The notes beneath the pieces were generated by a model, which was not told the DNA's origin, did no database searches, and was given only the letters and a program-made list of their open reading frames with translations. Positions 2,094-21,981 of a stretch of DNA of 46,191 bases are shown here, in pieces. Origin of the DNA: Nitrospirota bacterium (GTDB lineage Bacteria > Nitrospirota > Thermodesulfovibrionia > Thermodesulfovibrionales > Dissulfurispiraceae); contig JAJZPZ010000011.1 of the NCBI GenBank assembly GCA_021847795.1, positions 1 to 46,191 of the forward strand, read 5' to 3'. The translations under genes and the position numbers were made by a program. Position 1 is the first letter of the stretch. Each line of letters opens with the position of its first letter.

Positions 2094-3125
2094 TCAGGGG
2101 AGATTTTTGACGATAAGGGGTCCGATCAGTTTCGTCAAACCGACAGGCAGCTTCTTCCAGATAATTATTGCTATTTTGTACCTGGGGTTCTTCGGGTTGA
2201 GCTCAGGGAGTCCCTTTGCGCCTCTGAGCCAATACTGCCAGTAAAGCTGAATGGGCCTGGCGCCCCACTGCTCCTTAAATCTGTACGTCCCCTCCCCGGG
2301 CGTGGAACGGCCGAAATCAAAAACAGTGAAATTGTTTTCACAGGCGAATTTGAGGGAGGACCAGTAAAGGAGCATATTGGGGCTGTAGCGGTTATATCTC
2401 CTCAGGGAGGAAGCCCAGGGGATTTCAAGCTTGTCTTTAAACCCCACTAGAAATCCTGAAGCCACGGGCCGGCCGTTCTTCGTATACACGGTGCAGATAT
2501 TTGTTGTTTCAGGGAACTCCCGGAGAATGCTCCTGAAGAATTCCTTGGAGTACACGGGGGTCCCCAGGTCCCTCATGTTTAACGAAAAGGACGCGTAGAA
2601 ATTGTCCAGTTCCTCTTCTTTCCCCAGCCTCGGGTACATCCCTTCCCGTACCGGCCTCCGTATCTGGCTCCGCAATTTCGATGTAAAGGATTTCCATAAG
2701 TCGTCTGCGTTTGCAGGGAGTTTCAGGCACATGGAAACCTTTGCGGTTTTTACCGGGAAACCGTTATCCATGCGGTACGTGTGCCGTAATTCAATGTGCT
2801 CTGCATTTTCCCTTTTAGCGATATCTATGGCCTCATCCAGCAGCCGGCAGCCGATTTCCCGGCCCTCGCTGAATATTCCCCCATAGTTGAAGTAGGGAAG
2901 GGATATCATGAAATTTCCGAAAAGCACGCTTTTCAGCTGTACAAGAGGCAGTATGCCGTTTATTTCGCCTCTTCCCCCTTCGGACATCAGGTAATAGGTC
3001 TTGTGTCCGAACCCCTTCTCAATGATATTCTTCCAGCCTACCTGGTGATAGGCCGAAGCGCCTGATCCCGTAACGTATGCATCCCATCGTTCATGGTCTT
3101 TTTCGCTGAGCAGGCGGATGGACAT
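2094..3125 (-). CDS. FemAB family protein, exosortase/PEP-CTERM system-associated type
   Basis: A 343-residue protein of the FemAB/GNAT-fold superfamily, closely resembling the FemAB-like proteins found in XrtA exosortase EPS loci. Recognisable stretches are GSGASAYHQVGWKNIIEKGF near the N-terminus, YFNYGGIFSE, and the C-terminal VFDFGRSTPGEGTYRFKEQW, which matches the conserved second GNAT half. FemAB proteins transfer amino acids from aminoacyl-tRNA onto peptidoglycan precursors; the EPS-associated relatives are uncharacterised and may acylate or aminoacylate the polymer. I chose the ATG at 3125 over one at 3194 because it has an excellent AAAGGAGGAAGAA leader. It lies 72 bases downstream of the glycosyltransferase in the same direction. 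Confidence 0.85.
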   Translation of the reverse strand: MSIRLLSEKDHERWDAYVTGSGASAYHQVGWKNIIEKGFGHKTYYLMSEGGRGEINGILPLVQLKSVLFGNFMISLPYFNYGGIFSEGREIGCRLLDEAIDIAKRENAEHIELRHTYRMDNGFPVKTAKVSMCLKLPANADDLWKSFTSKLRSQIRRPVREGMYPRLGKEEELDNFYASFSLNMRDLGTPVYSKEFFRSILREFPETTNICTVYTKNGRPVASGFLVGFKDKLEIPWASSLRRYNRYSPNMLLYWSSLKFACENNFTVFDFGRSTPGEGTYRFKEQWGARPIQLYWQYWLRGAKGLPELNPKNPRYKIAIIIWKKLPVGLTKLIGPLIVKNLP

Positions 3126-3197
3126 TTCTTCCTCCTTTTGGCGGGACGGACAGTGTATAACAGCGGGATGAGCTTTCCCATGCTGCAGCCTCAATGC

Positions 3198-4547
3198 TTA
3201 TGCATATGCGGAAAATACATCTTCGAGCTTTCTGGCATTTTGTTTTATATCGAATTCCTTCCTGATCCGGTCCCGCGCGTTGCCCCCGAGCTTTTCGGAC
3301 AGCCTTTCATCCCTGAGGAGCTTTAATATCGCCCCGGTCAATTCCTGTACATCACCGACAGGAACGACATAGCCTGTAACACCGTCAAGAACGGCATCCG
3401 GCAGCCCGCCGTTGTCTGAAACAACGGAAGGTTTCCCCATTGCCATTGCCTCGAGGTTGGCTATTCCCAGACCCTCGAGAAATGTTGTAGGGCAATGCAC
3501 AAAGATATCAGTGGCGGCCAGAATACTTTGTATGTCATCCCTCCACCCGGTGAAAATGACGTGGTCTCCCAGGTTCAGCCTGTTTGCTTGTTCCTTAAGG
3601 GCGTCCATTGACTCCCCGTCTCCTACCATGAGAAAGACGACCTCCTGATAGCTCCTGATGATCATTGAAGCGGCTTGCAGAATTTCCGCCTGGCCTTTAC
3701 CCTCAACAAAACGGGAAATATTGCCCACCACCTTCCTGCTGTCCGGAATGTGCAATTCCCTTCTTACTGCGCTCCTGTGTGCCGGGACATCGGAATCGTT
3801 ATATATATCGAGGCTTATCCCTTCATAAATCGTCACGAGTCTTTTTGTCGCAGGGCTGTTTTTCACCTGGTCCTCGGTTGTTGCCCTGGAGACGGCAATA
3901 AACAGGTCTACATACGGTGTCAGGATTTTTTTGATTAACCCCCCCTCGTTGATCCCCCCTGCCTTGCGGCAGATGCACGGAATACCGGAAATGTGTGCAG
4001 CCACAGTTCCCGCCAGATGGTAATGGACATCGTTGTTGAGGATGACCAGCTCGACTCCTCCCCGCTTGATTAACTCTCTTGTTTTGCGGATCAGGGGAAT
4101 CTCGACGGTGATCATCCGCAGCAGCAATCTGAGGATGACTTTTATTTTCTGCAGGAGCCATGGCCCCGAGTTTTTTAAAAGCCATTTGAACGGCACATAA
4201 TCAGCCGGCTCAGGATAGCTGTTCAGGAAGAAAACAGGGATGCCGAGATCCGCAATCTTTCTTGTATAAGACATGTTGTTGAAGTAATAAAACGCAACTG
4301 AAGGCTCGAACTTTCTCATATCTATGCAGCCGAGCATGTAAAAGAGAAAGCTTGCCGTGCCTCCATATCCCTTCCCGCTGTCTATAAAGAGTGTTTTGAT
4401 CTTTTCACGATTTTTCTTCACAATTGCTGCCCTCCCCGGAAGAAAAGAGTTTCCGTATCCGACCAGGTTCTGGTTATTTCCGGTGATGCTGTCAGGCGGA
4501 AGCGTGACCGTGTTTGCCGGCCATGCAGGTCCTGATCTCTTAGCCAT
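3198..4547 (-). CDS. GT4-family glycosyltransferase
   Basis: A GT-B fold retaining glycosyltransferase (group 1, GT4). The N-terminal half starts with LFIDSGKGYGGTASFL. The C-terminal half contains GNISRFVEGKGQAEIL, VFLMVGDGE and VIFTGWRDD. EGLGIANLEAMAMGKP is the E-x7-E signature for binding the nucleotide-sugar donor. It should add a sugar to the lipid-linked EPS unit at the inner membrane. The start is uncertain. ATG 4547 lies just after the upstream stop but has a weak leader. An internal GTG (the IVKKNRE region, preceded by GGAAGGG) would also keep the whole domain. An ATG at 4640 would overlap the upstream gene by 79 bases and is less likely. Confidence 0.85.
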   Translation of the reverse strand: MAKRSGPAWPANTVTLPPDSITGNNQNLVGYGNSFLPGRAAIVKKNREKIKTLFIDSGKGYGGTASFLFYMLGCIDMRKFEPSVAFYYFNNMSYTRKIADLGIPVFFLNSYPEPADYVPFKWLLKNSGPWLLQKIKVILRLLLRMITVEIPLIRKTRELIKRGGVELVILNNDVHYHLAGTVAAHISGIPCICRKAGGINEGGLIKKILTPYVDLFIAVSRATTEDQVKNSPATKRLVTIYEGISLDIYNDSDVPAHRSAVRRELHIPDSRKVVGNISRFVEGKGQAEILQAASMIIRSYQEVVFLMVGDGESMDALKEQANRLNLGDHVIFTGWRDDIQSILAATDIFVHCPTTFLEGLGIANLEAMAMGKPSVVSDNGGLPDAVLDGVTGYVVPVGDVQELTGAILKLLRDERLSEKLGGNARDRIRKEFDIKQNARKLEDVFSAYA

Positions 4548-4561
4548 GTGAGGATGTCTTA

Positions 4562-5653
4562 TCAACGGAATATGACTTTCGCGGTATATTTCAGGAAGTT
4601 TTTGATAACAAAGAGTATAGGTATAATTTTCTTCCGGCAAAAAAGGATTTTAACGGAACTCCGCCCTCCATTTGCCCAGTGGAACTTGTATGATTCGCTC
4701 CCCTTCAGGAAATCATACGTGGAAATTCCTTCACCCCTTGTGCTGCTGATACAAAGCCCTACCAGGATGTTGCCTATGCTTATCTTGGGATTGAAGGCCT
4801 TATCGGTTGCCATGAGGTACAACGATAAAGTGTTCTGATACCGTAAATGGAGAATCCCGGCTATCGGATTGCCGCCGGATTTCAGCAAATCGACCCGGAT
4901 CGTCTTATCGTCCGTGCAGCGGGACGCAAAATTTTCGATGAACACGGGCAGCCGTCCGTCGTCCTGTTTTTTCTTCGCTTTGTAAAAAGAAAGGAACTCC
5001 TGAAGAGACGCCTGCTTATCGCGGGAGGGGAATGAGCAATAGTGCTCTGTTGCCCCGCTCCTGCCGAGCACATTGTAGTGCCGCCTGAACTGCTGCCTCC
5101 GGTTCGGCGAGAGGCTTGAAATGAAATCCGCGCCGCTTTCCGGCAGGAACACAATCGGGCAATAGGCCCCCTGGTTGACCTCTGCATACTTCCCCTCTGA
5201 GTTGATCCTGTTCAGGAGATGCAAAAGGAACAGCGAGTTCGAAGGTATGTCCGTTAATGAGAAGTAGTCCCAGAGTGTAGGCACATCTTTCAGGAGAAAA
5301 TCGTAGATGCACTCCGTAACCTCTCTTTCCTTGCCTCTTTTTATAAAAACATCGAGATAGTCAGACCCTGTTTCAGGTGTTCCTAAAAACTCGATCTGTT
5401 TCAGCGTAAAGGCCTTAAGGTCGATATGGCGGACGGACCAGGGTGCAATCCCTACCAGTTCGCCGTTGCTCGACACGGTTAATATAAAAAGGCTGCGGTT
5501 CCCGTTGAGGTAACACTCGGCCCAGGAGTAAAGCCATTCCCAGGTGAGGAAGAGGGTGTCCGAACCCGACTTCGAGAGGACATCATTCCAGGCCCCTGAT
5601 AATCCCTTCCAGTCTTCGAGAGAGCTTATGATGGACACTTTACAGTCACCCAT
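4562..5653 (-). CDS. CelD/BcsL-type GNAT acyltransferase
   Basis: A 363-residue protein of the CelD/BcsL acetyltransferase group (Acetyltransf_6), a double-GNAT fold related to FemAB. Support comes from FLTWEWLYSWAECY in the first 45 residues, the SPNRRQQFRRHYNVL segment, PIAGILHLRYQNTLSLYLMA and the late TYDFLKGSESYKFHWANGG. That order is typical of cellulose and EPS-linked acetyltransferases, usually cytoplasmic enzymes that decorate polysaccharide precursors. Its start overlaps the upstream GNAT gene by 8 bases, implying translational coupling. It is one of nine acyltransferase-fold genes in this locus and is not a close relative of the five tandem copies. Confidence 0.8.
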   Translation of the reverse strand: MGDCKVSIISSLEDWKGLSGAWNDVLSKSGSDTLFLTWEWLYSWAECYLNGNRSLFILTVSSNGELVGIAPWSVRHIDLKAFTLKQIEFLGTPETGSDYLDVFIKRGKEREVTECIYDFLLKDVPTLWDYFSLTDIPSNSLFLLHLLNRINSEGKYAEVNQGAYCPIVFLPESGADFISSLSPNRRQQFRRHYNVLGRSGATEHYCSFPSRDKQASLQEFLSFYKAKKKQDDGRLPVFIENFASRCTDDKTIRVDLLKSGGNPIAGILHLRYQNTLSLYLMATDKAFNPKISIGNILVGLCISSTRGEGISTYDFLKGSESYKFHWANGGRSSVKILFCRKKIIPILFVIKNFLKYTAKVIFR

Positions 5654-6314
5654 GGGTAAGTAGCCGGTTTCTGCAGTGCAGTTGTTTGTTTTCCCTGAAA
5701 AAGTTTTTCCCCAATACCCTTATCACGAGAATATTTTTAAAGGGGATGAAGCCGAACCGGAGATGCGTGTTCATCGAAATGCTGTTTTCGTAATCGATCA
5801 TGGTAATGATCCTGTGTCTTCCGAGTTGCCTCATCATCCCTGCCATGGCCATTTTGAATTTCAGCCAGAACCCGCACATGCGGTACTCGGGAGAGATGTA
5901 GGCATCGTAGGCATACACTGAATCAGCGGGGATATTTATCTTATAACGGTAGCGCTCCTCGATATGATAGGATTTGTCGGTAAACCACTCGTACCCTACT
6001 ATTTTCCCGTTCGCCACTGCAACGATACAATGGTCGTTGACAGAGAAGCGCCTGGAAAAAAGCTCTTTTTTGTTCTCAAACCCTGCCATCCCGTCGACAT
6101 CGGAAGACATGCCTTTTCGCACTTCTCCGGGACCTCTCGGGTTTCTTACTTCCGGGACCCCGTTATAGAACAGGAAGAAGAAGCGCCTGACCTGCAGGGA
6201 GCGCCATGTGGCCTTGTCGAGTATTGTCTGAAAGATGATAAAAGGAGGGTCCTTTCTGAGATTCATGATTCTGTTTATCAGTGTGCGGTCGTTGATCCGG
6301 CTTAGGGATTTCAT
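5646..6314 (-). CDS. GNAT-family N-acetyltransferase
   Basis: A GNAT-fold protein with a basic N-terminus, a central NDHCIVAVANGKIVGYEWF (beta 2-4) and YAYDAYISPEYRMCGFWLKF, which fits the acyl-CoA-binding strand and loop. RIITMIDYENSISMNTHLRFGF is the usual C-terminal 'partner residues plus neighbour with a shared reading' of single-domain GNATs. The ATG at 6314 is preceded by GCGAGG at good spacing. Upstream ATGs at 6335 and 6434 in the same frame lack a ribosome site, so the short form (222 residues) is preferred. It sits 210 bases downstream of the five tandem acyltransferases and overlaps the next gene. The substrate is unknown; EPS modification is inferred from context. Confidence 0.7.
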   Translation of the reverse strand: MKSLSRINDRTLINRIMNLRKDPPFIIFQTILDKATWRSLQVRRFFFLFYNGVPEVRNPRGPGEVRKGMSSDVDGMAGFENKKELFSRRFSVNDHCIVAVANGKIVGYEWFTDKSYHIEERYRYKINIPADSVYAYDAYISPEYRMCGFWLKFKMAMAGMMRQLGRHRIITMIDYENSISMNTHLRFGFIPFKNILVIRVLGKNFFRENKQLHCRNRLLTHG

Positions 6315-6488
6315 ATAGTGGACCTCGCTTTTCATGATATTCAGAAGCAGAGTAAAAGACATCCATCCAGGCCAGATGAAGGAATCTCCCGGATATCCCT
6401 TTCCATTTGTCACAGGTGTCACGGCGAACTCCAATGGCGCTGCAAGGTTCAGAGATAAGTGTACTCATGTGTTGCACTTGTTACCAGC

Positions 6489-6521: not shown

Positions 6522-6850
6522 ATGTCAGGAAAAGGAGAACTCCAGCGGCGCAGTCGAGGAGGGCGAAAGCAGCAGCAGTCCCTTGAGTCCGGGGGCGGAG
6601 AAATGTTTGGCGAGGGCCTTCCCGGTCTCCTCCGAAAGCCCTGCGCCGTCGGTCACCCCTACCACCCCCTTCAAGCCTCCTTTGGTATGGATGATGACGG
6701 GGTTGTCTTGAAAAAAGCGCACGACCGCCTGCGTGTACCGGGGAATGAAGAAATAGACCCGGGACTGCGACTCGTCATCAGGGCAGACCTCGGCCCCCCA
6801 TTCCCGTTTGGTCTTATACACCCCGCCGTTAAGAAAAGGACGGCTTTTTA
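6522..6850. repeat. Near-identical DNA block shared with 10983-11311
   Basis: The 3' end of paralog A, including its stop codon, aligns without gaps to the 3' end of paralog E (offset 4461 bases) with only scattered substitutions. Similarity drops sharply upstream of about 6850. This is far closer than the paralogs are elsewhere and indicates recent duplication or gene conversion. Confidence 0.85.
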
Positions 6851-7592
6851 ATGCATCCACTTTCTCGAAATTCCGGTCCTTTGCGAAAATAAGCAGGAAA
6901 TAATAGAGGGCCATTTGCGCACCGTTCCTGACGTGGGTTGCATCTCCGTCAAGGACGCCTGTCCTGTGGAACAGCAGCACCCGGTCTTTAACAGAGCACA
7001 GGGCGCCGGCAACGGGCCGGCCACCGTCGAGTATGAGCAGGATGGAGCCGCTCAGGAACATTTTCCTCATGTCCTCGTAGGAAGTTATGTTTGCAAGATA
7101 CCCGAACTGCTTTCTCGTATGGGGCAGATGCATCCGCCGGTAATAGAATTCAAAGTCCTTCATATCCGTGGAAACCCGGTAGCTGTACTTTTTGGCCAGG
7201 CTGTTCGAGACCTGTTTCTTATTCTTATGGAAGCGTTTCCTGATCTCGTCCCACGTGCCCGAGGTGTTTATGACCTGCCGTACATACTCCTGCCCCCTGA
7301 AGGTATACAGGCCCCGGAACTCCGTTTCGTATTTTTGGGGGAGCACTGCAATGCAGAGGTCGATCTTATTCGGCTGCTGAATAATCCTCTTCAGGGCCGG
7401 TATCCAGATTTTCCATTCCCTGGCGATATGCACCGGTCCCTTGTACGCTTCTGCCATCAGACATTTTGTGAACAGGGAGTTGTCCACAAACAGGCGCCGG
7501 GACTGACCGGCGCCCCCGACCAGTGTGGCCCTGCTGAAATACCGGGAGGCTGCCGGATATATCCAGCATTTGATCGTCTTGAGCGGGTTCAT
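6525..7592 (-). CDS. Tandem FemAB/GNAT-fold paralog A
   Basis: Last-transcribed member (355 residues) of a five-gene paralogous array. It shares with the others: a basic N-terminus; LCIAVLP near residue 80; FRGLYTFRGQEYVRQ near 93-107; LPHTRKQFG near 155; PVAGALCSV; VYKTKREWGAEVCPDD near 260; and PGLKGLLLLSP near the C-terminus. The layout (PVAG strand, GAQMALYYFLLIFA helix, then K-rich loop with a WG) matches the C-terminal GNAT half of FemAB/CelD proteins. I do not recognise a named family. The start overlaps the end of paralog B as ATGA, so translation is coupled. Its last 96 codons match paralog E at 90 of 96 residues. Function is inferred only from fold and locus: acyl or aminoacyl transfer. 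Confidence 0.8.
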   Translation of the reverse strand: MNPLKTIKCWIYPAASRYFSRATLVGGAGQSRRLFVDNSLFTKCLMAEAYKGPVHIAREWKIWIPALKRIIQQPNKIDLCIAVLPQKYETEFRGLYTFRGQEYVRQVINTSGTWDEIRKRFHKNKKQVSNSLAKKYSYRVSTDMKDFEFYYRRMHLPHTRKQFGYLANITSYEDMRKMFLSGSILLILDGGRPVAGALCSVKDRVLLFHRTGVLDGDATHVRNGAQMALYYFLLIFAKDRNFEKVDALKSRPFLNGGVYKTKREWGAEVCPDDESQSRVYFFIPRYTQAVVRFFQDNPVIIHTKGGLKGVVGVTDGAGLSEETGKALAKHFSAPGLKGLLLLSPSSTAPLEFSFS

Positions 7593-8707
7593 GTACGCAC
7601 ATCCGGAGGGGCCTTGAATGAGAGTTCCACCGGGACAGCTGCATGCGGAGAAAGCAGCAGCAGGCCTTCCAGTCCCGGCGCATAGAACTGCTTGTGCAGT
7701 TCTTTTATTGTTTCAGCCGAGAGTCCTGTGTCGTTGCTCATACCCACGACCCCTTTCAGGCCTTTGTCCGTATAGATGATTACCGGGCTGCTTTCAAAGA
7801 AGCTCACCGCCCCTTCGGTGCAGCGGGGCAGAAAAAAATAAATCCAGGACTTGACATCGTCGTCCGGGTAGACTGCCGCTCCCCAGGAGCGTTTCGTTTT
7901 GTAAACGGAACTGTTGAGCAGCGCGTGGCTCTTCAATGTGTCTACCTTTTCCAGGTTCTGTTCTTTTGCGAAGAGCAGTGGATAATAATAAGGGGCCATC
8001 TGTGCGCCGCTTTTTATAAGTCCTGCATCCCCGCCCAGCACGCCTGAGCTGTAAGCTATCAATGTGCGGTCTTCTACCATGCAAAGTGACCCTGCCACGG
8101 GGTTGTTGTTTTCCATGAACACGAACAAAAAACCTTTCAGGAACTTCTCTCTCATGTCCTCATAGGAGGTTATCTTGGCAAGATCTCCGAACTTTTTCCT
8201 TGTATGGGGCAGATACATCAGGCGGTAGAAAAAATCGAAATCCTTTATATCGGCTGAGATGCGGTACCGGTATTTTCTTGCCAGGCTGTTCGAGATTTGC
8301 TTCCTGTTCTTATGGAAGCGTCTTCTGATCTCATCCCACGGGCCCGAGGTATCGATAATCTGCCGTACATACTCCTGCCCCCTGAAGGTGTACAGGCCCC
8401 GGAACTCCGGTTCGTACTTCCCGGGGAGCACTGCAATACAGAGGTCTATGTCCTCCGCGGAGGAGCGGATGGTCTTCCTGAGCGCCGGGATCCGGATCCT
8501 TCGTTTCCTTATAACGCGCACAGGCCCGTCGAACACTTTGTGCAGCAGGTATTTCGTAAAAGGGGTGTTGTCGGCAAAGAGGCCCCTGAAGGGTTTGCCT
8601 GAGCCTTTGAGAACCCCCTCGGCCAGTGTCGCCCATATAATGTAGCGGGACAGCGCCGGGTAGAGCCGGTATTTGAGACGCCTGATGAGATCCACGCCGG
8701 TTTTCAT
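7589..8707 (-). CDS. Tandem FemAB/GNAT-fold paralog B
   Basis: Second-to-last member (372 residues) of the array. The family landmarks are intact: LCIAVLPGKYE, FRGLYTFRGQEYVRQ, LPHTRKKFG, PVAGSLCMV, VYKTKRSWGAAVYPDD and PGLEGLLLLSP. The first roughly 127 residues after the initial MKTGV are identical to those of paralog E except for one Lys/Asn change. It carries a longer C-terminal tail (APPDVRT) whose stop overlaps the start of paralog A. It lies 30 bases downstream of paralog C. No signal peptide or clear membrane segment is seen, so a cytoplasmic or peripheral enzyme is likely. The substrate is unknown. Confidence 0.8.
   Translation of the reverse strand: MKTGVDLIRRLKYRLYPALSRYIIWATLAEGVLKGSGKPFRGLFADNTPFTKYLLHKVFDGPVRVIRKRRIRIPALRKTIRSSAEDIDLCIAVLPGKYEPEFRGLYTFRGQEYVRQIIDTSGPWDEIRRRFHKNRKQISNSLARKYRYRISADIKDFDFFYRLMYLPHTRKKFGDLAKITSYEDMREKFLKGFLFVFMENNNPVAGSLCMVEDRTLIAYSSGVLGGDAGLIKSGAQMAPYYYPLLFAKEQNLEKVDTLKSHALLNSSVYKTKRSWGAAVYPDDDVKSWIYFFLPRCTEGAVSFFESSPVIIYTDKGLKGVVGMSNDTGLSAETIKELHKQFYAPGLEGLLLLSPHAAVPVELSFKAPPDVRT
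8314..8694. repeat. Near-identical DNA block shared with 11690-12070
   Basis: The 5' third of paralog B matches the 5' third of paralog E gaplessly (offset 3376 bases), including silent positions, with a handful of substitutions. Identity begins abruptly at the GGAAGCGTCTTCTGATC segment and fades at the start codon. The sharp edges fit a gene-conversion tract or recombination joint. Confidence 0.85.
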
Positions 8708-8737
8708 GCGTCCGGGGTTTGCGGTATCGGACGCCTT

Positions 8738-9841
8738 CTATGCATGGAGTCCCCTGAATGAGAGTTCCACCGGCGCCGTCGCATTCGGGGTAAGCACCAG
8801 CAGGCCTTCCAGCCCGGGGGAATAGAACTGCCTGATCAGCTTTTTCCGGGTATCAGGGGAAAGCTCAAAGTCATCGCTCACTCCTGTTATGCCCTTCAGA
8901 CCGCTATCGGTGCTGATAATCATGGGGGTATTTTCAAAAAAGCCGGCTGCCCGCTCCGGGTGGTGCGGCATGAAAAAGTAGACCCAGGATGCAGCCCCGT
9001 CATCGGGATAAACAGCAGCTCCCCACTCCCGTTTTGTCCGATAGATGCCATTGTCAATAAGGGAAGGGATTTTCAACAGGTCCACTTTATGGAAATGCTG
9101 TTCTTTGGCATAGAGGATTTGAAAGTAGTAAAGAGCCATTTGCGCACCGGATTTAATGTTTTCCCCGACGCCGTCAAGGACGCCGAGTTTATAGGCAACC
9201 AGCACGCGTTCCCTTACCGTGCAGAGGAGTGCGGCAACGGGACATCTCCCTCTCATCACCATAAGCAGGAATCCTTTAGAAAAAGATTTTTTCATATCTT
9301 CATAGGGCACAATAAGAGAGGACTCCCCGAATTGCCTTTTTGTATGCGGCAGGTGCATCTGATGATAAAAGTGATCGAAGTCTTGCATATCAGTTGATAT
9401 GCGGTAGCTGAATCCGTATTTTGCAGCCAAATTGTTCGATATCTGACGCTTTTTTTTATGGAAACGGGCTCTGATCTCCTCCCATGAGCCGAATATATCG
9501 ACGGCCTGGCCGACATATTCCTGGGCCCTGAAGGCGTACAGGCCCCGGAGCGCCTGATCGTATTTCTTTGAGAGGACTGCAATGCAAATGTCCTGTGAAT
9601 CGGCCAGGCCCTTAATACTGTTTCCCACGGCCGGAAGCCACATTTTCCGCGTTCCTGCAACGCGTGCCGGCTCTGCATACACTTTTCTCATCAGGTAACG
9701 CATGAACAGTGAATTGCCGATAAAAAAACAACGCAAATGCCGGCCGGTCTTGCTCAGGGGGCCCTCCATCAGGGTGGCCCTGATAAGGTATCCGGAGACT
9801 GCGGGATATATCCTTTGTTTTATTTTTTTTATCAGGTCCAT
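8738..9841 (-). CDS. Tandem FemAB/GNAT-fold paralog C
   Basis: Third member (367 residues from the ATG at 9841, preceded by AGGGAGAAC). It is more divergent: ICIAVLSKKYD, LRGLYAFRAQEYVGQ, LPHTKRQFG, PVAALLCTV, IYRTKREWGAAVYPDD and PGLEGLLVLTP. The catalytic-looking core spacing is conserved, so it is probably functional. An in-frame ATG at 9946 would lengthen it by 35 residues into the preceding paralog and is not favoured. It sits 13 bases downstream of paralog D and 30 bases upstream of paralog B. No near-identical DNA block with the other copies was noticed, unlike paralogs A, B and E. Confidence 0.8.
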   Translation of the reverse strand: MDLIKKIKQRIYPAVSGYLIRATLMEGPLSKTGRHLRCFFIGNSLFMRYLMRKVYAEPARVAGTRKMWLPAVGNSIKGLADSQDICIAVLSKKYDQALRGLYAFRAQEYVGQAVDIFGSWEEIRARFHKKKRQISNNLAAKYGFSYRISTDMQDFDHFYHQMHLPHTKRQFGESSLIVPYEDMKKSFSKGFLLMVMRGRCPVAALLCTVRERVLVAYKLGVLDGVGENIKSGAQMALYYFQILYAKEQHFHKVDLLKIPSLIDNGIYRTKREWGAAVYPDDGAASWVYFFMPHHPERAAGFFENTPMIISTDSGLKGITGVSDDFELSPDTRKKLIRQFYSPGLEGLLVLTPNATAPVELSFRGLHA

Positions 9842-9854
9842 CGTGAAGTTCTCC

Positions 9855-10955
9855 CTAAGAATGCGGTCTGAAATTATCAAAGGCGAGTTCGATGATCTTT
9901 GATCTGCGCGGTGAAAGGAGCAGCAGGCCGTCCAGTCCCGGCGCATAGAACTGCTTGAGCAGCTTTTTTTCGGTTTCGGAAAAAGATCCGGGAGGGCCGC
10001 TTATCCCGACTACACCCTTCAGGCCGTTTTCCGTGTGGACAATTGCGGGATTGTTTTCAAAAAAACTTACAACTCCTTCGGTATAGCGGGGAATGAAGTA
10101 GTAGACCCAGGATTCGGCTTCATTATCAGGATAAACGGCAGATCCCCACTCTCGCTTGGTCCTGTAAACGCCATCACTGAAAAAGGAGCGGCTTTTCATA
10201 AAATTGACCTCGTGGAGACCTTGCTTTTTTGCGAAAACAATCATGAAAAAGTAGAGGGCTGATTGAGAATCTCTTTTAAGCGGGGCCTCTCTGCTGCGGA
10301 AGACCCCCATGTCCCTGAATATCAATGCATTATCTTCTATCAGGCAAATACTGCCCGAAACGGTCCTGCCCTCCTCTGTAACCAACAGGAGAAAGCCTTT
10401 CGAAAAAATGCCTTTCAGATATTCATGAGAGCTGATATGCGAGAAAATTCCGAACTGTTTTTGCGTATGAGGCAGGTACATCTGGTGGTAAAAAAAATCG
10501 AAGTCTTCCTGATCGGTTGAGATTCGGTAGCCGTACTTTTTCCCCAAAGTGTTCGTGAGCTGCCTTTTTCTGCTATGAAAGCGCTTCCTGACCTCACCCC
10601 AGGGGGCTGAAATGTCGAGGACCTGCCTGACCCATTCCCTGCTTTTAAAAGTATATGATCCTTTGATGTTCGCCTCATAGCACTGCGGGAGTATCGCAAT
10701 GCAGAGGTCCGTATCAGGTAACTGGTGGACCAGTTTTTTGAGGGCAGGCAGCCAGATCCTCCATTTCCGGACGGTATGTACCGGCTCTTCATACATTTTT
10801 CGTGCGAGATGTATTGTGAAGAGTGAGTTGTCGACGAAGAGGCACCGGAACGGCGTGCCGGTATTTTTCAGTGTCCCCTCAGCTAATGTCGCCCTGCTGA
10901 AGTATTTGGATGCGGTCGGATAAGCCCAGTGTTTTATGTTTTTCAGAAGATTCAT
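9855..10955 (-). CDS. Tandem FemAB/GNAT-fold paralog D
   Basis: Fourth member (366 residues). Its N-terminus (MNLLKNIKHWAYPTASKYFS) is closest to paralog A. Landmarks are LCIAILPQCYE, IKGSYTFKSREWVRQ, LPHTQKQFG, VSGSICLIED, VYRTKREWGSAVYPDN and PGLDGLLLLSP. The RGLYTFRGQEY block seen in A, B and E is replaced by KGSYTFKSREW, and the middle (GVFRSREAPLKRDSQSALYF) is unusually changed, so substrate preference may differ. It lies 30 bases downstream of paralog E. Same inferred role: acyl or aminoacyl transfer to an EPS component; not demonstrated. Confidence 0.8.
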   Translation of the reverse strand: MNLLKNIKHWAYPTASKYFSRATLAEGTLKNTGTPFRCLFVDNSLFTIHLARKMYEEPVHTVRKWRIWLPALKKLVHQLPDTDLCIAILPQCYEANIKGSYTFKSREWVRQVLDISAPWGEVRKRFHSRKRQLTNTLGKKYGYRISTDQEDFDFFYHQMYLPHTQKQFGIFSHISSHEYLKGIFSKGFLLLVTEEGRTVSGSICLIEDNALIFRDMGVFRSREAPLKRDSQSALYFFMIVFAKKQGLHEVNFMKSRSFFSDGVYRTKREWGSAVYPDNEAESWVYYFIPRYTEGVVSFFENNPAIVHTENGLKGVVGISGPPGSFSETEKKLLKQFYAPGLDGLLLLSPRRSKIIELAFDNFRPHS

Positions 10956-10982
10956 TATTCAGCCTGGTGGCCCCTGCCGCGC

Positions 10983-11311
10983 ATGTCAGAAAAAGGAGAA
11001 CTCCAGCGGAGCAGTCGAGGAGGGCGTAAGCAGCAGCAGTCCCTTGAGTCCGGGGGCGGAGAAATGTTTGGCGAGGGCCTTCCCGGTCTCCTCCGAAAGC
11101 CCTGCGCCGTCGGTCACCCCTACCACCCCCTTCAAGCCTCCTTCGGTATGGATGATGACGGGGTTGTCTTGAAAAAAGCGCACGACCTCCTGCGTGTACC
11201 GGGGAATGAAGAAATAGACCCAGGACTGCGACTCGTCATCAGGGCAGACCTCGGCCCCCCATTCACGTTTGGCCTTGTACACCCCGTCATTAAGAAAAGG
11301 AAGGCTTTTCA
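10983..11311. repeat. Copy of the 6522-6850 block (3' end of paralog E)
   Basis: Gapless near-identity to the 3' end of paralog A. The copy includes the stop codon and a few bases beyond it, so the exchange tract reached the intergenic side. Confidence 0.85.
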
Positions 11312-12071
11312 TCGTATCCACCTTTTGTATGCCCTGCTCCTTGGCAAAAAGGAGACGGCAATAGGAGAGGGCTGCCTGTGCCCCTCTCCTGATATGTTCC
11401 GGGTCCCCGTCCAGTACCCCGGCTCTGCGGGCGACCAGTACGCGGTTTTCAACCATGCAGAGCGAGCCTGCAACAATCCGTTCGTTGCTGCTGATCAGCA
11501 GCAGAAAGCCTTTTAAGAAAAAATGCTTCATCTCATCATAGGAATCTACCAGCGAGAAATCTCCGAAGCGTTTTTTTATGAGCGGCAGATGCATCCGGTG
11601 GTAGAAGAAATCGAAGTCTTTTATATCCACGGATACACGGTAATGGTAGTTCTCATGGAGGCTGTTTGAAAGCTTCCTCTTGTTACGGTGGAAGCGTCTT
11701 CTGATCTCATCCCACGGGCCCGAGGTGTCGATAATCTGCCGTACATACTCCTGCCCCCTGAAGGTGTACAGGCCCCGGAACTCCGGTTCGTACTTCCCGG
11801 GGAGCACTGCAATACAGAGGTCTATGTCCTCCGCGGAGGAGCGGATGGTATTCCTGAGCGCCGGTATCCGGATCCTTCGTTTCCTGATAACGCGCACAGG
11901 CCCGTCGAACACTTTGTGCAGCAGGTATTTCGTAAAAGGGGTGTTGTCGGCAAAGAGGCCCCTGAAGGGTTTGCCTGAGCCTTTGAGAACCCCCTCGGCC
12001 AGTGTCGCCCATATAATGTAGCGGGACAGCGCCGGGTAGAGCCGGTATTTCAGCCGCCTGATGAGATCCAT
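10986..12071 (-). CDS. Tandem FemAB/GNAT-fold paralog E (mosaic)
   Basis: First-transcribed member (361 residues from the ATG at 12071; longer in-frame starts would overlap the upstream CelD-type gene). The N-terminal 127-residue block is almost identical to paralog B (one substitution). The C-terminal 96 residues match paralog A at 90 positions. The middle, about residues 128-255 (RNKRKLSNSLHENYHYR, LPLIKKRFGDFS, RIVAGSLCMV, RRGAQAALSYCRLLFAKEQG), matches neither closely, and LPHT is replaced by LPLI. It is therefore a chimera of the neighbouring genes around a distinct core. The frame is intact, so it is likely expressed. It lies 2 bases after the stop of the upstream gene. Confidence 0.85.
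   Translation of the reverse strand: MDLIRRLKYRLYPALSRYIIWATLAEGVLKGSGKPFRGLFADNTPFTKYLLHKVFDGPVRVIRKRRIRIPALRNTIRSSAEDIDLCIAVLPGKYEPEFRGLYTFRGQEYVRQIIDTSGPWDEIRRRFHRNKRKLSNSLHENYHYRVSVDIKDFDFFYHRMHLPLIKKRFGDFSLVDSYDEMKHFFLKGFLLLISSNERIVAGSLCMVENRVLVARRAGVLDGDPEHIRRGAQAALSYCRLLFAKEQGIQKVDTMKSLPFLNDGVYKAKREWGAEVCPDDESQSWVYFFIPRYTQEVVRFFQDNPVIIHTEGGLKGVVGVTDGAGLSEETGKALAKHFSAPGLKGLLLLTPSSTAPLEFSFF
11690..12070. repeat. Copy of the 8314-8694 block (5' end of paralog E)
   Basis: Gapless near-identity to the 5' third of paralog B. The left edge is abrupt at GGAAGCG, where the flanking sequence becomes clearly divergent. Confidence 0.85.
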
Positions 12072-12073
12072 GT

Positions 12074-13261
12074 TCAGTTGCCCCTTCGGTCTAACCAGGA
12101 CTTGACCTTCCTGGCAGTCCGGAATTTCTTCAGAAAGTCCTTCCAGCCGTACTGGAACATGTATTCCCCCCAGCCCTGGAGTGACTTGGGATAGATTTTT
12201 ATGGACCCGTACCGGTTGCAAGTCTGGGTCCACTCCATTTTCCAGGCGTCGCAGGCGCCGAGGAAATCATAAGTTCTCAGTTCTTGTTTTTTGTAAAGGT
12301 AATCGAAGACCTCGAATCGGAGCAGATTCCCGGGGGAAATATAGTGAAAGGATTCGTTATAGCCCGGCTTCAACAGGAATACGGTGTGCCCGAAGCTGAG
12401 GCAGAAATCTGCCGCAATAGGGGAGTTGTCCAGATACAGGATGAACAGGAGGAGATGGTTACGGCCCATCGCCCAATGGGCGAGTTGCCGGTAGAACTGC
12501 TCAACTTCCGCCTGGCACTTTACCGCTGTCCCGTTCCTGCCTTTCCAGCTGTTATATTCGACATCGAAAACGATATTCAGGATATCGTCCAGCTTTTCGT
12601 TCCGCTCAATCGCCTCAAAGTGAAGCGTGCCCTGTGTTCCGGCTTTTTTGCGGTATCTCCGCAAGGTGTTCTTCAGACGCCCGGGCAGGTTATCATGAAA
12701 TGCCGTCCAATCCCCCGAGCATTTTGTCCAGGGCGCCCATGGCTGAGTATGGTGATAATAAGGAAACTTATGATGTTTCAGCTCAGATGTGAGCGTGCTT
12801 GCCGTGTCTCTGAACTCCGACAAATATTCCAGGCGCACCTGAGAATGGGGAGCGTACTTCAGCAATAGTTCAAGAAAACCGGACAGCGCTTCCCTGAGTA
12901 CAGATGGTTCGATAAGGAAACTGTAATAGCAGGTGTGGGTATTCGTCATGGATGAAATGGCGGCGCCTTCCGAACCGCCGGCAGCGGGGGCAGTGATACA
13001 GCATGGAAAGATCGCCTTGATGTCCTCCGCATTTTTTAAAATTACGAGAAAAAGCTGTTTCCCCGCGCCGAAGGCCCTCCACCAGAGATCAAACCAGCCA
13101 TAGCTGATGAAAATGCCTGTATCTCCAGGAGTCAGCGAGAGTGAGTCCCATTTCCGTATAAGTTCCGGGGGGAGCTTCCACTCGCGATATATCCAGCCCG
13201 TCCAGCCGTTGTGCAGATTTACACGCTCTGGTTTGTACACAGTGCCGATGGCAGTGTCCAT
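12074..13261 (-). CDS. CelD/BcsL-type GNAT acyltransferase
   Basis: A 395-residue protein of the CelD/BcsL group. FISYGWFDLWWRAFGAGKQL (about residues 51-70) is the classic opening motif. LPGRLKNTLRRYRKKAG is the central basic helix. SPIAADFCLSFGHTVFLLKPG and RTYDFLGACDAWKMEWTQTC form the second GNAT half. These proteins are cytoplasmic acyltransferases often tied to polysaccharide synthesis. It sits two bases upstream of the five paralogs and 33 bases downstream of the exosortase gene, so it heads the acyltransferase block. It shares the fold with the tandem copies but not their sequence landmarks. Confidence 0.8.
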   Translation of the reverse strand: MDTAIGTVYKPERVNLHNGWTGWIYREWKLPPELIRKWDSLSLTPGDTGIFISYGWFDLWWRAFGAGKQLFLVILKNAEDIKAIFPCCITAPAAGGSEGAAISSMTNTHTCYYSFLIEPSVLREALSGFLELLLKYAPHSQVRLEYLSEFRDTASTLTSELKHHKFPYYHHTQPWAPWTKCSGDWTAFHDNLPGRLKNTLRRYRKKAGTQGTLHFEAIERNEKLDDILNIVFDVEYNSWKGRNGTAVKCQAEVEQFYRQLAHWAMGRNHLLLFILYLDNSPIAADFCLSFGHTVFLLKPGYNESFHYISPGNLLRFEVFDYLYKKQELRTYDFLGACDAWKMEWTQTCNRYGSIKIYPKSLQGWGEYMFQYGWKDFLKKFRTARKVKSWLDRRGN

Positions 13262-13294: not shown

Positions 13295-14842
13295 TTAGCG
13301 GGGATGCAGGTAATTGTTTAAAACGGGAATGAGTTGCCGGGAAAACTCCACCTCGTCGTTCAATGTCTTCCCCCTGGCGCCGGGGCCGGTAAGATTGCCG
13401 GAAATTATTATCGTAGCTCCGTTTGTCCGTTGATGGATAAGGCTTTCGATGATCGTAAAAAGCTTTATTTTGTAGCGGTCGGCAGTGATCCTGCCATTCA
13501 GGTCATGCCAGTAAAGAACGAGAGTGGGCATCATGCCTTTCCTGAGTACGGTCTTGTTTGCCCTGACAAAAGCAGGAGAAGCTGTCGGTATCTCCACTGC
13601 CCCGGCGTCTTTGTACAATTCCTGCAGCTCGGGATGGGCAAGCTCTTTTTCCTTACGCTGATATTCAAAATAGCCGATCTGCAACCTGATTTCCCGGCCC
13701 TGGTCGTTCCTGTATATTCTGTTGACTTCATCGTCGGCTCCGCAAATTTTCAAATTGAATGCAGGAGAGTTCGCGCTCTGTCCTCTCCAGTTTCCGATAG
13801 TAAGAGGCAGTTCGCTTAAGGGGGCTTGCAAGGGAACCGGATGGGGATTATGGAAACCCACAAAGCCCCCCAGGGTGACCAGGACGAGCATTGCCGTGGT
13901 CCACGCCTTGTTCTGATATTCTGAGTTGCCGGCTGCACATTGTTCTTCCTTCCGGGGTTTGTCTTTTGTTGCCGGGGTCGGGATTCGGGCGAGGACCCAG
14001 GCCCCGGCGAGCAGAAAGATAAAGCCGACTACGGACACGAAAATACCCTGGAAAATGTGAAGCGGCCCGTGCACATCCTGCCCGGTGTAATATGTCCAGA
14101 TCCCGATGAGGGTCACCCGGAGCGGGTTTGCAAGGACCCCGACAAGGACGGCAAAGGTTACGAGCAGTATTCTTCTGGCCCAGCTTTTCTGGGTGAAATA
14201 AGCCAGGGGGACCCCCAGCGCAATAATCGACAGGAGGTAGCGGACCCCGCTGCATGCATTGGCCACCTCGAGCGTGGCGCCGGGCAGTTCAATATACTGG
14301 ACATCCCGGAAGGCGGGAATGTCCAGTATCCTCAGGAGCTTTGTGGAGGCGGTTGCCGTAAAAAGCTGAAAGGGCCAGTGCAGCCTGGCGATAGCCAGGT
14401 CCAGGATGATGGGAAACATGAGGGTAAGATAGACCAGCGGAAGGGCGAGGCCCTTTGTGTAGCGCGTGCCGAGGAACAGGAGCGCCAGTCCCGGGATGAG
14501 TGTGAAGAGCGCTATTTGTTGGACCGTGGCTGTATTCCCGATTTCCCCGAAGATGAGCAAACTGCTGCTGATGAGGATCAAGGCCAGTCCGCCCGTTATA
14601 TTGGGCTGAATGGGAAGCCTCCTGAGCCTTTCCCGGTCTGCATATGCGAAATACATACTGATGAACGGCACAATGAAGCCGTGGGAGTACCCGTCGCGGT
14701 CCAGCCACGTCCTGACCATTAAGGACAGTGGGTTGAGATAGCAGTATACGAGAACCGCCGTAAGGATGCCTGCCTTGAGCCATGTCCTGGCCGGTATGGA
14801 CAGGGTATAGGGTAACAGGTGATTGTTCGTATCGTTGTGCAT
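13295..14842 (-). CDS. Exosortase with fused C-terminal EpsI domain
   Basis: A polytopic inner-membrane transpeptidase-like enzyme (515 residues). About eight hydrophobic segments lie between residues 22 and 285. The catalytic set is visible: Cys197 in ACSGVRYL, Arg242 in NPLRVTL and His262 in PLHIFQG. Exosortases cleave PEP-CTERM-type C-terminal sorting signals at the membrane. After residue ~290 comes a linker, another hydrophobic segment (AMLVLVTLGGFVGF) and an EpsI-type periplasmic domain (DUF3485-like: PLTIGNWRGQ, LQIGYFEYQRKEKELAHP, YWHDLNGRITADRYKIK). The two are separate genes in many genomes; here they are one. Because this is an EPS-type locus, an XrtA-like assignment is most likely, but the subtype was not tested. 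Confidence 0.92.
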   Translation of the reverse strand: MHNDTNNHLLPYTLSIPARTWLKAGILTAVLVYCYLNPLSLMVRTWLDRDGYSHGFIVPFISMYFAYADRERLRRLPIQPNITGGLALILISSSLLIFGEIGNTATVQQIALFTLIPGLALLFLGTRYTKGLALPLVYLTLMFPIILDLAIARLHWPFQLFTATASTKLLRILDIPAFRDVQYIELPGATLEVANACSGVRYLLSIIALGVPLAYFTQKSWARRILLVTFAVLVGVLANPLRVTLIGIWTYYTGQDVHGPLHIFQGIFVSVVGFIFLLAGAWVLARIPTPATKDKPRKEEQCAAGNSEYQNKAWTTAMLVLVTLGGFVGFHNPHPVPLQAPLSELPLTIGNWRGQSANSPAFNLKICGADDEVNRIYRNDQGREIRLQIGYFEYQRKEKELAHPELQELYKDAGAVEIPTASPAFVRANKTVLRKGMMPTLVLYWHDLNGRITADRYKIKLFTIIESLIHQRTNGATIIISGNLTGPGARGKTLNDEVEFSRQLIPVLNNYLHPR

Positions 14843-15860: not shown

Positions 15861-17396
15861 TCAGACCGCCTTAAGTTCATTTTTGCTGATTTTACCGGTC
15901 ATGGTTTTGGGCAGGGACTTCCGTATTTCCACGTACTTCGGTATCATTAAGGCCTCCAGATGCTCGGAGCAGTATCCCAGGATATCCTTCTCGGTCATAC
16001 TTGCGTTCTCTTCAAAGGCAACGTATGCTTTTATTGCCTGCCCCGTGATATCATCGTGCACCCCGACAACCGCTGCCTCAAGTACCCCATCTATGCTATA
16101 GAGTACATTTTCTATTTCCCTGGGGCTTACCTTCTCCCCCTTGCACTTGATGATGTCGTCTTTTCTCGATACAAAATAGAGGTATCCTTCCTCGTCCATC
16201 CTGAACAGGTCTCCGGTATGGAGGACTTTCTCTCCGGGATATTTCCCGGGCTTGAGGCATCGGGCCGTTTCATCCGGCAGTTCCCAGTACCCCATCATGA
16301 TGTTCGATCCCCTGATGACCAGTTCGCCGACCTCTCCCGGCCCGGCCCTTTCCCCCTTCTCATTGATGATGTAAACTTCCTCGTTGGGCATGCCCCTGCC
16401 GACAGAGGCCGGCCTGCTCTCGATCTCCTCAGGCGGCAGGTAGGAGACCCTCTTGCATTCCGTGAGACCGTACATTGAATAGAGCCTTGCATGGGGAAAC
16501 AGCTCCCGCAAGGCCCTGATATGGCTGAGCGGCAAAGCAGCCGCCGTGTTCGTGATATATCGAAGGGACCTGAAGTCATAGCCCCCTGCGCTTTTCATCC
16601 TGAGCAGGAGGGCAAAGATGGTCGGAACTCCGGGAAAACCTGTTGCCCTCTCCTGTATCATTGTTTCCGCCACCTGATGCGGATAGGCAAAGGATTTTTC
16701 GAGAATAACCGTGCCGCCTACCTGAAAGCCCATGAGTATCTGGTACAGGCCGTAGTCGAAAGACAGAGGGAGCACATTCATGATCCGGTCGCTTTCCGTA
16801 TTTTCCAGATAGGTTGTTATGGAATGCGCGGCCGAGACCATGTTGAGGTGGGAAAGCATGACCCCCTTGGGGCGGCCTGTAGAGCCCGAGGTGTATAGTA
16901 TGGATGCCAGGTCGAGATCGATGCAGGGTGACTGCACCATCTTCCTTGTCCCTGAAGCCACCGCATCCTCGTACCTTATGCAGGGCAGGGCGCCGTTATG
17001 GGAACCCGCCAGAATGATTGTTTCCAGGTGCGGGCAGGTGAGGCGTTTCAGCATATCAGCCCTGCTGCCCCGGGCCGTGATAACTTTCGCCCTGCTGTTG
17101 TTCATGATATATTCGAGCTTTTCCGCCTTCATGGTGTGATTGATTACCATGAAGGCCGCCCCTGCCTTCAATGCCGCGAAAATCGACACGACAGCCTCGA
17201 TCGAATTGTCCATAAAGACCGCGATCCTGTCGCCGCGCCTCACGCCCTGCTCCAGGAAGACCGTTGCCAGGCTGTTTGCCATAGAATCTATTTCGGCATA
17301 GGTGAAGCCCCTGCCCTGGTAGATGAGCGCCGCCTTTTCAGGGAGTCGCGCAGCGCTGTATTCGAGGAAATTATTGACGAGCGTATGTCTGGGCAT
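15861..17396 (-). CDS. Acyl-CoA/acyl-ACP ligase (AMP-forming), exosortase system-associated
   Basis: A 511-residue ANL-superfamily adenylating enzyme. The P-loop-like core ILYTSGSTGRPKGVMLSH is near residue 170. Also visible are GVPTIFALLLRM, MYGLTECKRVSYLPP (A5), HTGDLFRMDEEGYLYFVSRK (A7/A8), GEKVSPREIE and the final PKTMTGKISKNEL (A10 lysine). It activates a carboxylic acid as acyl-AMP and passes it to CoA or a carrier protein. Its start overlaps the end of the acyl carrier protein gene by 26 bases, so the two are almost surely made together and the carrier is the probable acceptor. Ligases of this type are recurrent in exosortase A EPS loci. The acid used is unknown. Confidence 0.9.
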   Translation of the reverse strand: MPRHTLVNNFLEYSAARLPEKAALIYQGRGFTYAEIDSMANSLATVFLEQGVRRGDRIAVFMDNSIEAVVSIFAALKAGAAFMVINHTMKAEKLEYIMNNSRAKVITARGSRADMLKRLTCPHLETIILAGSHNGALPCIRYEDAVASGTRKMVQSPCIDLDLASILYTSGSTGRPKGVMLSHLNMVSAAHSITTYLENTESDRIMNVLPLSFDYGLYQILMGFQVGGTVILEKSFAYPHQVAETMIQERATGFPGVPTIFALLLRMKSAGGYDFRSLRYITNTAAALPLSHIRALRELFPHARLYSMYGLTECKRVSYLPPEEIESRPASVGRGMPNEEVYIINEKGERAGPGEVGELVIRGSNIMMGYWELPDETARCLKPGKYPGEKVLHTGDLFRMDEEGYLYFVSRKDDIIKCKGEKVSPREIENVLYSIDGVLEAAVVGVHDDITGQAIKAYVAFEENASMTEKDILGYCSEHLEALMIPKYVEIRKSLPKTMTGKISKNELKAV

Positions 17397-17652
17397 GGTT
17401 ATTGCCGTTTCCTTTCTTTTTTGAAATAAAGGCCGAGAGCTTATTGATTGAATCGAAATTATCGGGGACCAGTTCCTCGTCTTCCACGAAAATGCCGTAT
17501 GTGCCCTCTACAAAGGAGACCAGTTCCAGGACCCCTGTCGAGTCTATGATCCCCTTTTCCAGGAAAGAGACATCATCGCTGAAATCATTGTCTTTCCTCC
17601 CGTAGAGAAAGTTTTCGGTTATAAAATTCCTGATCTCAAACTTTAGCCGCAT
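17371..17652 (-). CDS. Acyl carrier protein
   Basis: A 93-residue four-helix carrier protein. GIIDSTGVLELVSFVEGTYG contains the DS motif, with Ser38 as the expected 4'-phosphopantetheine site, followed by an acidic helix (VEDEELVPDNFDSINKL) typical of partner recognition. It overlaps the asparagine-synthase gene by 17 bases upstream and the acyl ligase by 26 bases downstream, the tightest coupling in the locus. It should carry acyl groups loaded by the ligase to one or more acyltransferases. It is not the fatty-acid-synthesis ACP, which normally sits with fabD/fabG genes and carries the GADSLD motif. Confidence 0.9.
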   Translation of the reverse strand: MRLKFEIRNFITENFLYGRKDNDFSDDVSFLEKGIIDSTGVLELVSFVEGTYGIFVEDEELVPDNFDSINKLSAFISKKKGNGNNHAQTYARQ

Positions 17653-19615: not shown

Positions 19616-19629
19616 AATTGAACAAAAGC

Positions 19630-19800
19630 AAATTCTGAATCCTAAGCACGAAACTCTAAACACTAAATCCTAAACAAATTCCAATAACCAAAATTCAAAA
19701 TAGGTTTGAGCATTTGAATTTAGATATTGTTTAGAGTTTCGGATTTCGCATTTAGAATTTCTCCTTTTGTTTAGGATTTAGGTGTTAGGATTCAGAGCTT
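19630..19800. repeat. Palindromic intergenic repeat, copy 1 (TAAATCCTAAAC type)
   Basis: AT-rich sequence built of AATCCTAAGCACGAAACTC, CTAAATCCTAAAC and their complements around a centre near AAATTCAAAT. The same units form 31880-32042, and because the element is internally palindromic both strands match. It fills the gap between the AAA ATPase and asparagine-synthase genes. Its translated arms (FRVSCLGFRI-like peptides) create false ORF extensions. Function is unknown; it could form a long RNA hairpin within the operon. Confidence 0.8.
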
Positions 19801-20989: not shown

Positions 20990-21064
20990 GGAAGCTCCTT
21001 AAACTCCAGGTCCAAAAGCGCAAAACGCAGAAACTTTTTCCCGGAGTTTTATTCCTGGAATTTG

Positions 21065-21967
21065 TTATTTGATGGTTGTGATCTGCGCGGTTGCCTGTTT
21101 AGGCTTTTGCCCGTACCGATATACTTTTACCGCCCCCTGCTGCCCGTACTCGTAATGGTAGGGATATATGGTGCTCGAGAGATACTGCGGCACTTTGTTG
21201 AAGATCACTCCCAGGATCGTGCGGTCCTTTAAAAGGGAGACCGCCTGTGATGCGGTTCTGGATGAAGTGCGGGCAGCCTGTATCAGGAGGATAATGCCGT
21301 CCATATAGCCGCTTAACGAGAGCGGGTCCGCTGTGACGAGCAGGGGGGATGAGTCGAAGATAACATACCTGTTTTTATACCTGAGCTTCATCTCGTGTAC
21401 GAGGCTCCTCATCCTTTCCGAAGAGAGGAGTTCCGACGGGTTAGCCGGGACATTGCCTCCCGGCAGGACAACGAGTTTCCCGATGCCGGTCTTGATGAGG
21501 ACATCGGGGAGTTTCACCCTGCCTTCCAGATAATCGCTGAGTCCGTATTGGGGCTCCATCCCGAGATACCTGTGTATTGAAGGGTTTCTCAGGTCGGCAT
21601 CTACGAGGAGTACGGTATAGTCGATTTCTTTTGCCAGGGTGATTGCGAGGTTCAATGCCGTTATCGACTTGCCTTCGCTCACGTCCGGACTTGTGACCAT
21701 AATCGTGTTCAGAAAACTCTTTGCAGTGCCTTTGATGATCCGCGCCCGGATTCTCTTGTACTGCTCCGCTGCAAGAGAATGGGGTTCCGTTATGCAGACG
21801 ACGTGTTTATCCACCCTTGCGGGGTCTATTGCGGTCTCCCCTGCTTCAAAACGGGGAAGGTCGGTCAGTTCCTCAACGGTCTCCTGCATGCCGCCGGCCG
21901 GAGCAGGCCCTTTCCCGGCCTCCCTTATTTTCAGCGCTTCCTCTAGTGCTGCCTCTCTTCTGCTCAT
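21065..21967 (-). CDS. CpsD/CapB-like tyrosine-protein kinase (EPS chain-length control)
   Basis: A bacterial tyrosine kinase (BY-kinase), 300 residues. The deviant Walker A TSPDVSEGKS is at about 92-101, Walker A' VLLVDADLR at 119-127 and Walker B-like YVIFDSSPLL near 203. A C-terminal tyrosine cluster (IYPYHYEYGQQ and VYRYGQ) is the expected autophosphorylation tail. It partners with the upstream Wzz-like membrane protein, whose C-terminal cytoplasmic end activates such kinases. It starts 14 bases after that gene. Phosphorylation cycling normally sets EPS chain length and export. Confidence 0.9.
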   Translation of the reverse strand: MSRREAALEEALKIREAGKGPAPAGGMQETVEELTDLPRFEAGETAIDPARVDKHVVCITEPHSLAAEQYKRIRARIIKGTAKSFLNTIMVTSPDVSEGKSITALNLAITLAKEIDYTVLLVDADLRNPSIHRYLGMEPQYGLSDYLEGRVKLPDVLIKTGIGKLVVLPGGNVPANPSELLSSERMRSLVHEMKLRYKNRYVIFDSSPLLVTADPLSLSGYMDGIILLIQAARTSSRTASQAVSLLKDRTILGVIFNKVPQYLSSTIYPYHYEYGQQGAVKVYRYGQKPKQATAQITTIK

Positions 21968-21981
21968 GATTGTTCCTCCGC

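Follow-up and report, generated by a model that had tools for sequence, protein, structure and literature searches.

An array of five adjacent, related genes, here called P1 to P5, lies within an exosortase-type exopolysaccharide (EPS) operon of a Nitrospirota bacterium of the family Dissulfurispiraceae. The DNA analysed (the window) is a 46-kb contig (JAJZPZ010000011.1, 46,191 nucleotides) of a draft genome (GCA_021847795.1) of 3.54 Mb in 273 contigs; its features are collected in Table 1. A preliminary description of the window had proposed five consecutive paralogs of about 355-372 residues, and this held: the five open reading frames (ORFs), all on the minus strand and transcribed in the order P5, P4, P3, P2, P1, encode proteins that are 46-66% identical to one another over their full length, and P4 matches the other four with E values of 1e-112 to 1e-126. 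No further copy was found in the 3.54-Mb source genome. The three blocks (L/I)CIA(V/I)L, PGLxGLL and K(T/A)KRxWG(A/S) are present in all five proteins, but two other landmarks described as shared are not universal, i.e. GLYTFRGQEYVRQ is exact in three paralogs (P1, P2 and P5) and LPHT occurs in four, P5 having LPLI instead. Similarly, the coupled starts that had been described apply to P2 and P1, which overlap by 4 nucleotides (ATGA), but not to the rest of the array, where the gaps are 13-30 nucleotides; the start of P5 lies 2 nucleotides past the end of the preceding gene. P2 has an alternative GTG start at 8695 that corresponds to the P5 start, and the longest ORF of P3 begins at 9946, but we chose an ATG that agrees with the start of the other family members and is preceded by AGGGAG.

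Table 1. Features of the window discussed in the text (aa, amino acids; nt, nucleotides).
Feature	Position	Strand	Remarks
P1, FemX-like double-GNAT paralog, 355 aa	6525..7592	-	last ~105 codons ~97% identical to P5 (DNA)
P2, paralog, 372 aa	7589..8707	-	first ~127 family codons ~98% identical to P5
P3, paralog, 367 aa	8738..9841	-	start chosen: ATG at 9841
P4, paralog, 366 aa	9855..10955	-	modelled at pLDDT 88.1
P5, paralog, 361 aa	10986..12071	-	transcribed first in array; mosaic
Conversion tract P5/P2	11689..12071	-	P5 nt 1-383, 7 differences
Conversion tract P5/P1	10986..11301	-	P5 nt 771 to end, 11 differences
FemAB of XrtA/PEP-CTERM system	2094..3194	-	TIGR03019, E 5.8e-112, 374 bits (cutoff 260)
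GT4 glycosyltransferase	3198..4640	-	
PF13480 protein	4562..5653	-	E 2.4e-18
GNAT-like protein	5646..6434	-	PF00583 sub-threshold, E 0.011; syntenic in congener, 70% identity
PF13480 acetyltransferase-like protein	12074..13261	-	E 8.6e-26; directly upstream of array in operon
Exosortase W, EpsI domain	13295..14842	-	NF038142, E 1.1e-169
AMP-forming acyl-CoA ligase, possible donor-activating enzyme	15861..17396	-	related to TIGR03098, below its cutoff
Asparagine-synthase-type amidotransferase	17636..19663	-	related to TIGR03108 of XrtA system
XrtA-type EPS machinery	19823..24378	-	ATPase TIGR03015, tyrosine kinase TIGR03018-like, chain length TIGR03007, export TIGR03027

Relatives of the five proteins were gathered from whole genomes into a family alignment of 19 sequences, and both profile and structure comparisons bore out the FemAB/GNAT fold that had been proposed. 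The 19-member profile matched the TIGR03019 FemAB protein of the same operon over domain 2 (hhalign probability 97, E 6.7e-11), pairing GVYRTKREWGS of the family with GTYRFKEQWGA of the operon FemAB; the latter protein matches Weissella FemX (E 3e-6), and Staphylococcus aureus FemX has GLWAFKKVWG at the place corresponding to the family Lys motif. Library models placed the paralogs less readily. PF13480 (Acetyltransf_6) gave weak matches to P1, P3 and P4 over residues ~123-255 (14-16 bits, gathering score 22) and none to P2 or P5, unlike the relative in genome G056, which exceeds the cutoff (26.8 bits). Neither PF02388 (FemAB) nor TIGR03019, whose members score above 260 bits, matched any of P1-P5 at E<=1, and a search of the family profile against the sequences of the PDB gave no real match and one chance match.

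AlphaFold models made with 8 sequences (predicted local distance difference test, pLDDT, 78.6) and, for P4, with 19 sequences (pLDDT 88.1, predicted template-modelling score 0.85) both retrieved double-GNAT aminoacyl-tRNA-dependent enzymes first among their structural matches. The top PDB matches were Sba18 and Sbb17 (Z 15.4-15.7, 207-215 residues aligned, root-mean-square deviation (rmsd) 7.6-8.0; for Sba18, Z 15.7, 215 aligned, rmsd 7.7). With the pLDDT-88.1 model, S. aureus FemX scored Z 14.5, FemA Z 12.4 and A-PGS/MprF Z about 12, and W. viridescens FemX scored Z 14.1, its domain 2 superposing with an rmsd of 2.7 (162 residues; 108-278 of the model against 145-316 of the chain). The matches to FemX and Sba18 span model residues 7-295, i.e. 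two tandem GNAT domains. The preliminary description had allowed for structural matches to a fold unrelated to GNAT; the search returned FemABX-type double-GNAT enzymes instead. Its remark that it knew of no characterised family with this layout holds insofar as the subfamily itself appears undescribed, but the paralogs are members of the FemABX double-GNAT superfamily, and a studied analogue with an EPS role exists in HfsK (see below).

Every one of the 19 aligned sequences has Lys267 (K267) and Gly271 (G271). At the sequence level K267 pairs with the Lys of FemAB and FemX, and the offset between the range ends of the structural alignment places it on FemX residue 305, Lys305 being the catalytic residue of that enzyme according to a review (PMC12945691). 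The canonical acetyl-CoA (coenzyme A) pyrophosphate loop, [QR]xxGx[GA], was found at the motif-A position (after beta-4) in none of the 19, the matches to this pattern that do occur sitting elsewhere; in this respect the family differs from the classical acetyl-CoA GNATs. All 19 members are basic (isoelectric point 8.9-9.9), which together with the absent loop is suggestive, if only that, of an aminoacyl-tRNA donor. The GNAT fold leaves the donor unfixed, because VipF, RimI and other acetyl-CoA enzymes match it too, mostly with Z 10-12. We lean towards aminoacyl-tRNA as the donor because of the ranking of the structural matches, the Lys and the absent CoA loop, and would give an acyl-CoA or other activated acyl group slightly less than an even chance; acyl-CoA stays a serious rival because an acyl-CoA ligase (15861-17396) sits in the same operon. 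According to this alternative, the paralogs would be acyl-CoA (or acyl-adenylate or acyl carrier protein) N-acyltransferases that place various short or fatty acyl groups onto EPS amino sugars, with the donors supplied by the TIGR03098-like ligase. As an account of the whole array it is possible though not the one that we would expect: N-acylation from CoA is the default chemistry of the GNAT superfamily and AMP-ligase-like genes lie beside several of the relatives, but in the structural comparison aminoacyl-tRNA enzymes outrank CoA enzymes, and the ligase is general to XrtA-type loci (as the family name TIGR03098 indicates) and need not serve the paralogs.

Comparison of the copies at the DNA level revealed that P5 is a mosaic, a new finding that the preliminary description had missed. 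Codons 1-127 of P5 are like P2 (~98%), codons ~128-256 form a core of its own and codons ~257-361 are like P1 (~97%), the middle being only ~55-68% identical to both. Synonymous divergence (dS) is 0.06 and 0.05 in the two tracts and >2 in the middle. In trees of the three segments, P5 groups with P2 in the first (support 96/97) and with the congener gene Q2 and a gene of genome G345 in the second, i.e. the core (93/93); in the third, P5 and P1 stand together on very short branches, the node itself having weak support (53/0). Gene conversion explains this pattern most simply. We looked for conversion in other paralog pairs, in genomes G263 and G422 and in the congener, and found none. The idea that the tracts end exactly at domain borders was rejected, as the 5' break (codon 127) is near the domain 1/2 junction and the 3' break (codon ~257) is inside domain 2; the latter lies just before the Lys motif, and two events are too few for claiming selection of break points.

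The source genome is a draft in many contigs and P5 has both ends in common with other copies, which is what would be seen if P5 were a chimeric contig join of P2 and P1. We regard such an assembly artefact as extremely improbable, since neither tract is identical between the copies, the core of P5 is its own and groups with Q2, and the locus is syntenic with that of the congener. Nor are the five copies assembly duplicates of one gene, because they differ in a third to half of their residues. In the core tree, P4 also groups with the congener gene Q1 (weak support). Duplication of two or more ancestral genes, one of the P5/Q2 lineage and probably one of a P4/Q1 lineage, would have given rise to the array. 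Gene conversion would later have made P5 and P2 alike in their N-terminal third and P5 and P1 alike in their C-terminal third, while the cores stayed distinct.

All five window copies have full-length reading frames and retain K267, W270 and G271. The ratio of non-synonymous to synonymous divergence (dN/dS) between copies is low, with dS saturated outside the conversion tracts, and this, together with the intact frames, indicates purifying selection on the copies. No positive or diversifying selection was seen in dN/dS between copies, synonymous sites outside the tracts being saturated. Low dN/dS would also be expected if the five copies were equivalent, served to boost a single activity and were homogenised by gene conversion; the two tracts of low dS and the close spacing of the genes within one operon agree with such a dosage effect. 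However, the cores are only about 43-77% identical between copies at the DNA level, with dS saturated, and homogenisation has left P3, P4 and all of the cores untouched. The preliminary description had suggested selection for several substrate specificities or for dosage; the divergent cores would favour a division of labour among the copies, and we consider dosage unlikely.

The family is rare. Among the 176 genomes of the order it is present in five: the source genome with five copies, its one congener in this set with two, and three members of other families with a single copy each. The phylum was sampled by an even draw of 396 genomes; matches at E<=1e-5 came from 18 of these, of which about 14 scored higher than would be expected of generic GNATs. 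With fragments joined and at most four candidates per genome considered, no genome besides the source had matches at more than two places. Five copies are thus the maximum among all genomes searched. The congener locus is syntenic with the window (47-80% identity gene by gene) and has two copies, Q1 and Q2, where the window has five, so the proposed tandem amplification is supported by five copies against two in the congener and one or two elsewhere. Pattern scans of GTDB r220 contigs, made with one paralog or with the five-copy alignment, found no relative; this failure carries no weight on absence because the whole-genome profile search did find relatives. No relative was found on plasmids. 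Another lineage of the phylum has its own tandem pair of family genes, without conversion tracts (L053:8443-10841, genome G263). Second copies with broken frames occur in three further genomes (G348:C1:959156-960110, G309:C2:199978-200681 and G372:C4:413414-413884), suggesting decay or sequencing error. If this is decay, the array could reflect a rapidly changing EPS locus in which duplicates arise and are lost almost neutrally, some copies being inactive. We think this very unlikely for the window, where all five frames are full length, the motif residues are kept and dN/dS is well below 1 where measurable.

The exosortase EPS context that had been proposed for the array was confirmed by the presence around it of exosortase W, XrtA-type EPS genes and the TIGR03019 FemAB gene; a relative of N-acetyl sugar amidotransferases is also encoded upstream. 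In the direction of transcription the XrtA-type EPS genes, the amidotransferase, the ligase, exosortase W and the first PF13480 gene precede the array, and the GNAT-like, second PF13480, GT4 glycosyltransferase and FemAB genes follow it. Of the ten consecutive genes between 2094 and 13261, nine encode GNAT-fold or FemAB-like proteins and the remaining one the glycosyltransferase. The PF13480 protein directly upstream of the array (12074-13261) gave no significant match to the paralog family in hhalign. TIGR03019 was found in seven of the 176 genomes of the order, in one copy each, and three of the seven also hold the family (Fisher p 3.8e-4), two of these being congeners and so not independent; in the third (G083) the TIGR03019 gene and the family gene are on different contigs. 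Relatives in genomes of the groups f29 and f32 and in G113 adjoin genes for AsnB-type amidotransferases, AMP-ligase-like genes and methyltransferases. The G113 locus (L023) is a small polysaccharide locus that encodes the family member together with CapK-looking, Mur-ligase-like and AsnB-type proteins and a DegT aminotransferase. The congener has an extra GNAT gene (PF13527, L014:13412-14458) between its PF13480 gene and the exosortase gene, where the window has none. A malectin/fn3 protein adjoins the EPS operon in both genomes (window 26849-28852; congener L015:7905-10010), and in the congener its C-terminal part, of ~205 residues, matches twice in tandem. In the literature searched we found no paper that mentions FemAB and exosortase together; a paper on Rubrivivax includes one femA gene among those of a PEP-CTERM EPS locus.

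Several known systems can be compared with the array. The closest experimental precedent is probably HfsK of Caulobacter crescentus with its paralogs. HfsK is a FemX-like double GNAT that alters the properties of the holdfast, an EPS adhesin; its paralogs CC2278 and CC1244 do not cross-complement, make distinct contributions and may serve different surfaces, and the donor and acceptor were left unidentified in that study (PMC5362036). From the paper's description, the likeness lies in the two tandem GNAT domains, FemX as the nearest solved relative, the role in EPS and the frequent occurrence of orthologs in EPS clusters. HfsK and its paralogs do not, however, form a tandem array, and a C-terminal tail of 25 residues assists HfsK in binding cyclic di-GMP, whereas the present proteins have a longer C-terminal stretch. 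FemX, FemA, FemB and MurM share the double-GNAT fold and the K-x-x-(W/F)-G motif with the catalytic Lys, but theirs is a Gram-positive peptidoglycan substrate, their C-terminus differs and their Pfam family, PF02388, does not match the paralogs. The FemABX family includes paralogs that attach one residue after another. Sbb17, Sba18 and Orf11, the aminoacyl-tRNA-dependent peptide synthases of streptothricin-type antibiotics, include the best structural match, but have a small-molecule acceptor, a shorter chain and 16-19% identity. The operon FemAB, with its homologous domain 2, is single copy where found, in contrast to the array.

We therefore propose, with a probability of roughly 0.55, that P1-P5 form a lineage-specific tandem array of FemABX-type N-acyltransferases that modify an amine of an EPS precursor. 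The reaction would most likely be cytoplasmic, the amine belonging to a repeat unit, linked to a nucleotide or a lipid, of the exopolysaccharide that this exosortase-type operon makes. Domain 2 would be the catalytic centre, with K267 in the role of FemX Lys305 in a substrate-assisted transfer, and each copy would add either a residue of its own or the next one in a series. Several points weigh against this proposal, in addition to the acetyl-CoA enzymes that match the fold and the ligase in the operon: the last ~70 residues (after ~295) fall outside the structural matches obtained, FemX at full length superposes only loosely on the model (rmsd 7-11), and the G056 relative lies outside any exosortase locus, beside an apparent UDP-sugar dehydrogenase gene. 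We know of no assayed enzyme in the subfamily. A diversifying core was considered and rejected, as dN in the core does not consistently exceed that in the flanks, and this gives no direct sign of divergence in specificity.

A more specific and rather speculative version, to which we give only a small chance, is that the five paralogs act one after another, each transferring a residue of its own from an aminoacyl-tRNA, so that the EPS acquires a side chain of FemABX-style oligopeptide or of mixed acyl-peptide; conversion would keep the shared parts uniform, and the catalytic cores would remain distinct. If true, this would amount to tRNA-dependent peptide decoration of EPS, for which we know of no characterised system. 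Annotations of exosortase EPS loci include FemAB-like proteins that have no known substrate, and five copies with distinct cores and shared ends would offer naturally occurring variants with which to identify the residues that set the donor and acceptor. The proposal also predicts that the difference in copy number between the two congeners would be accompanied by a measurable difference in EPS composition.

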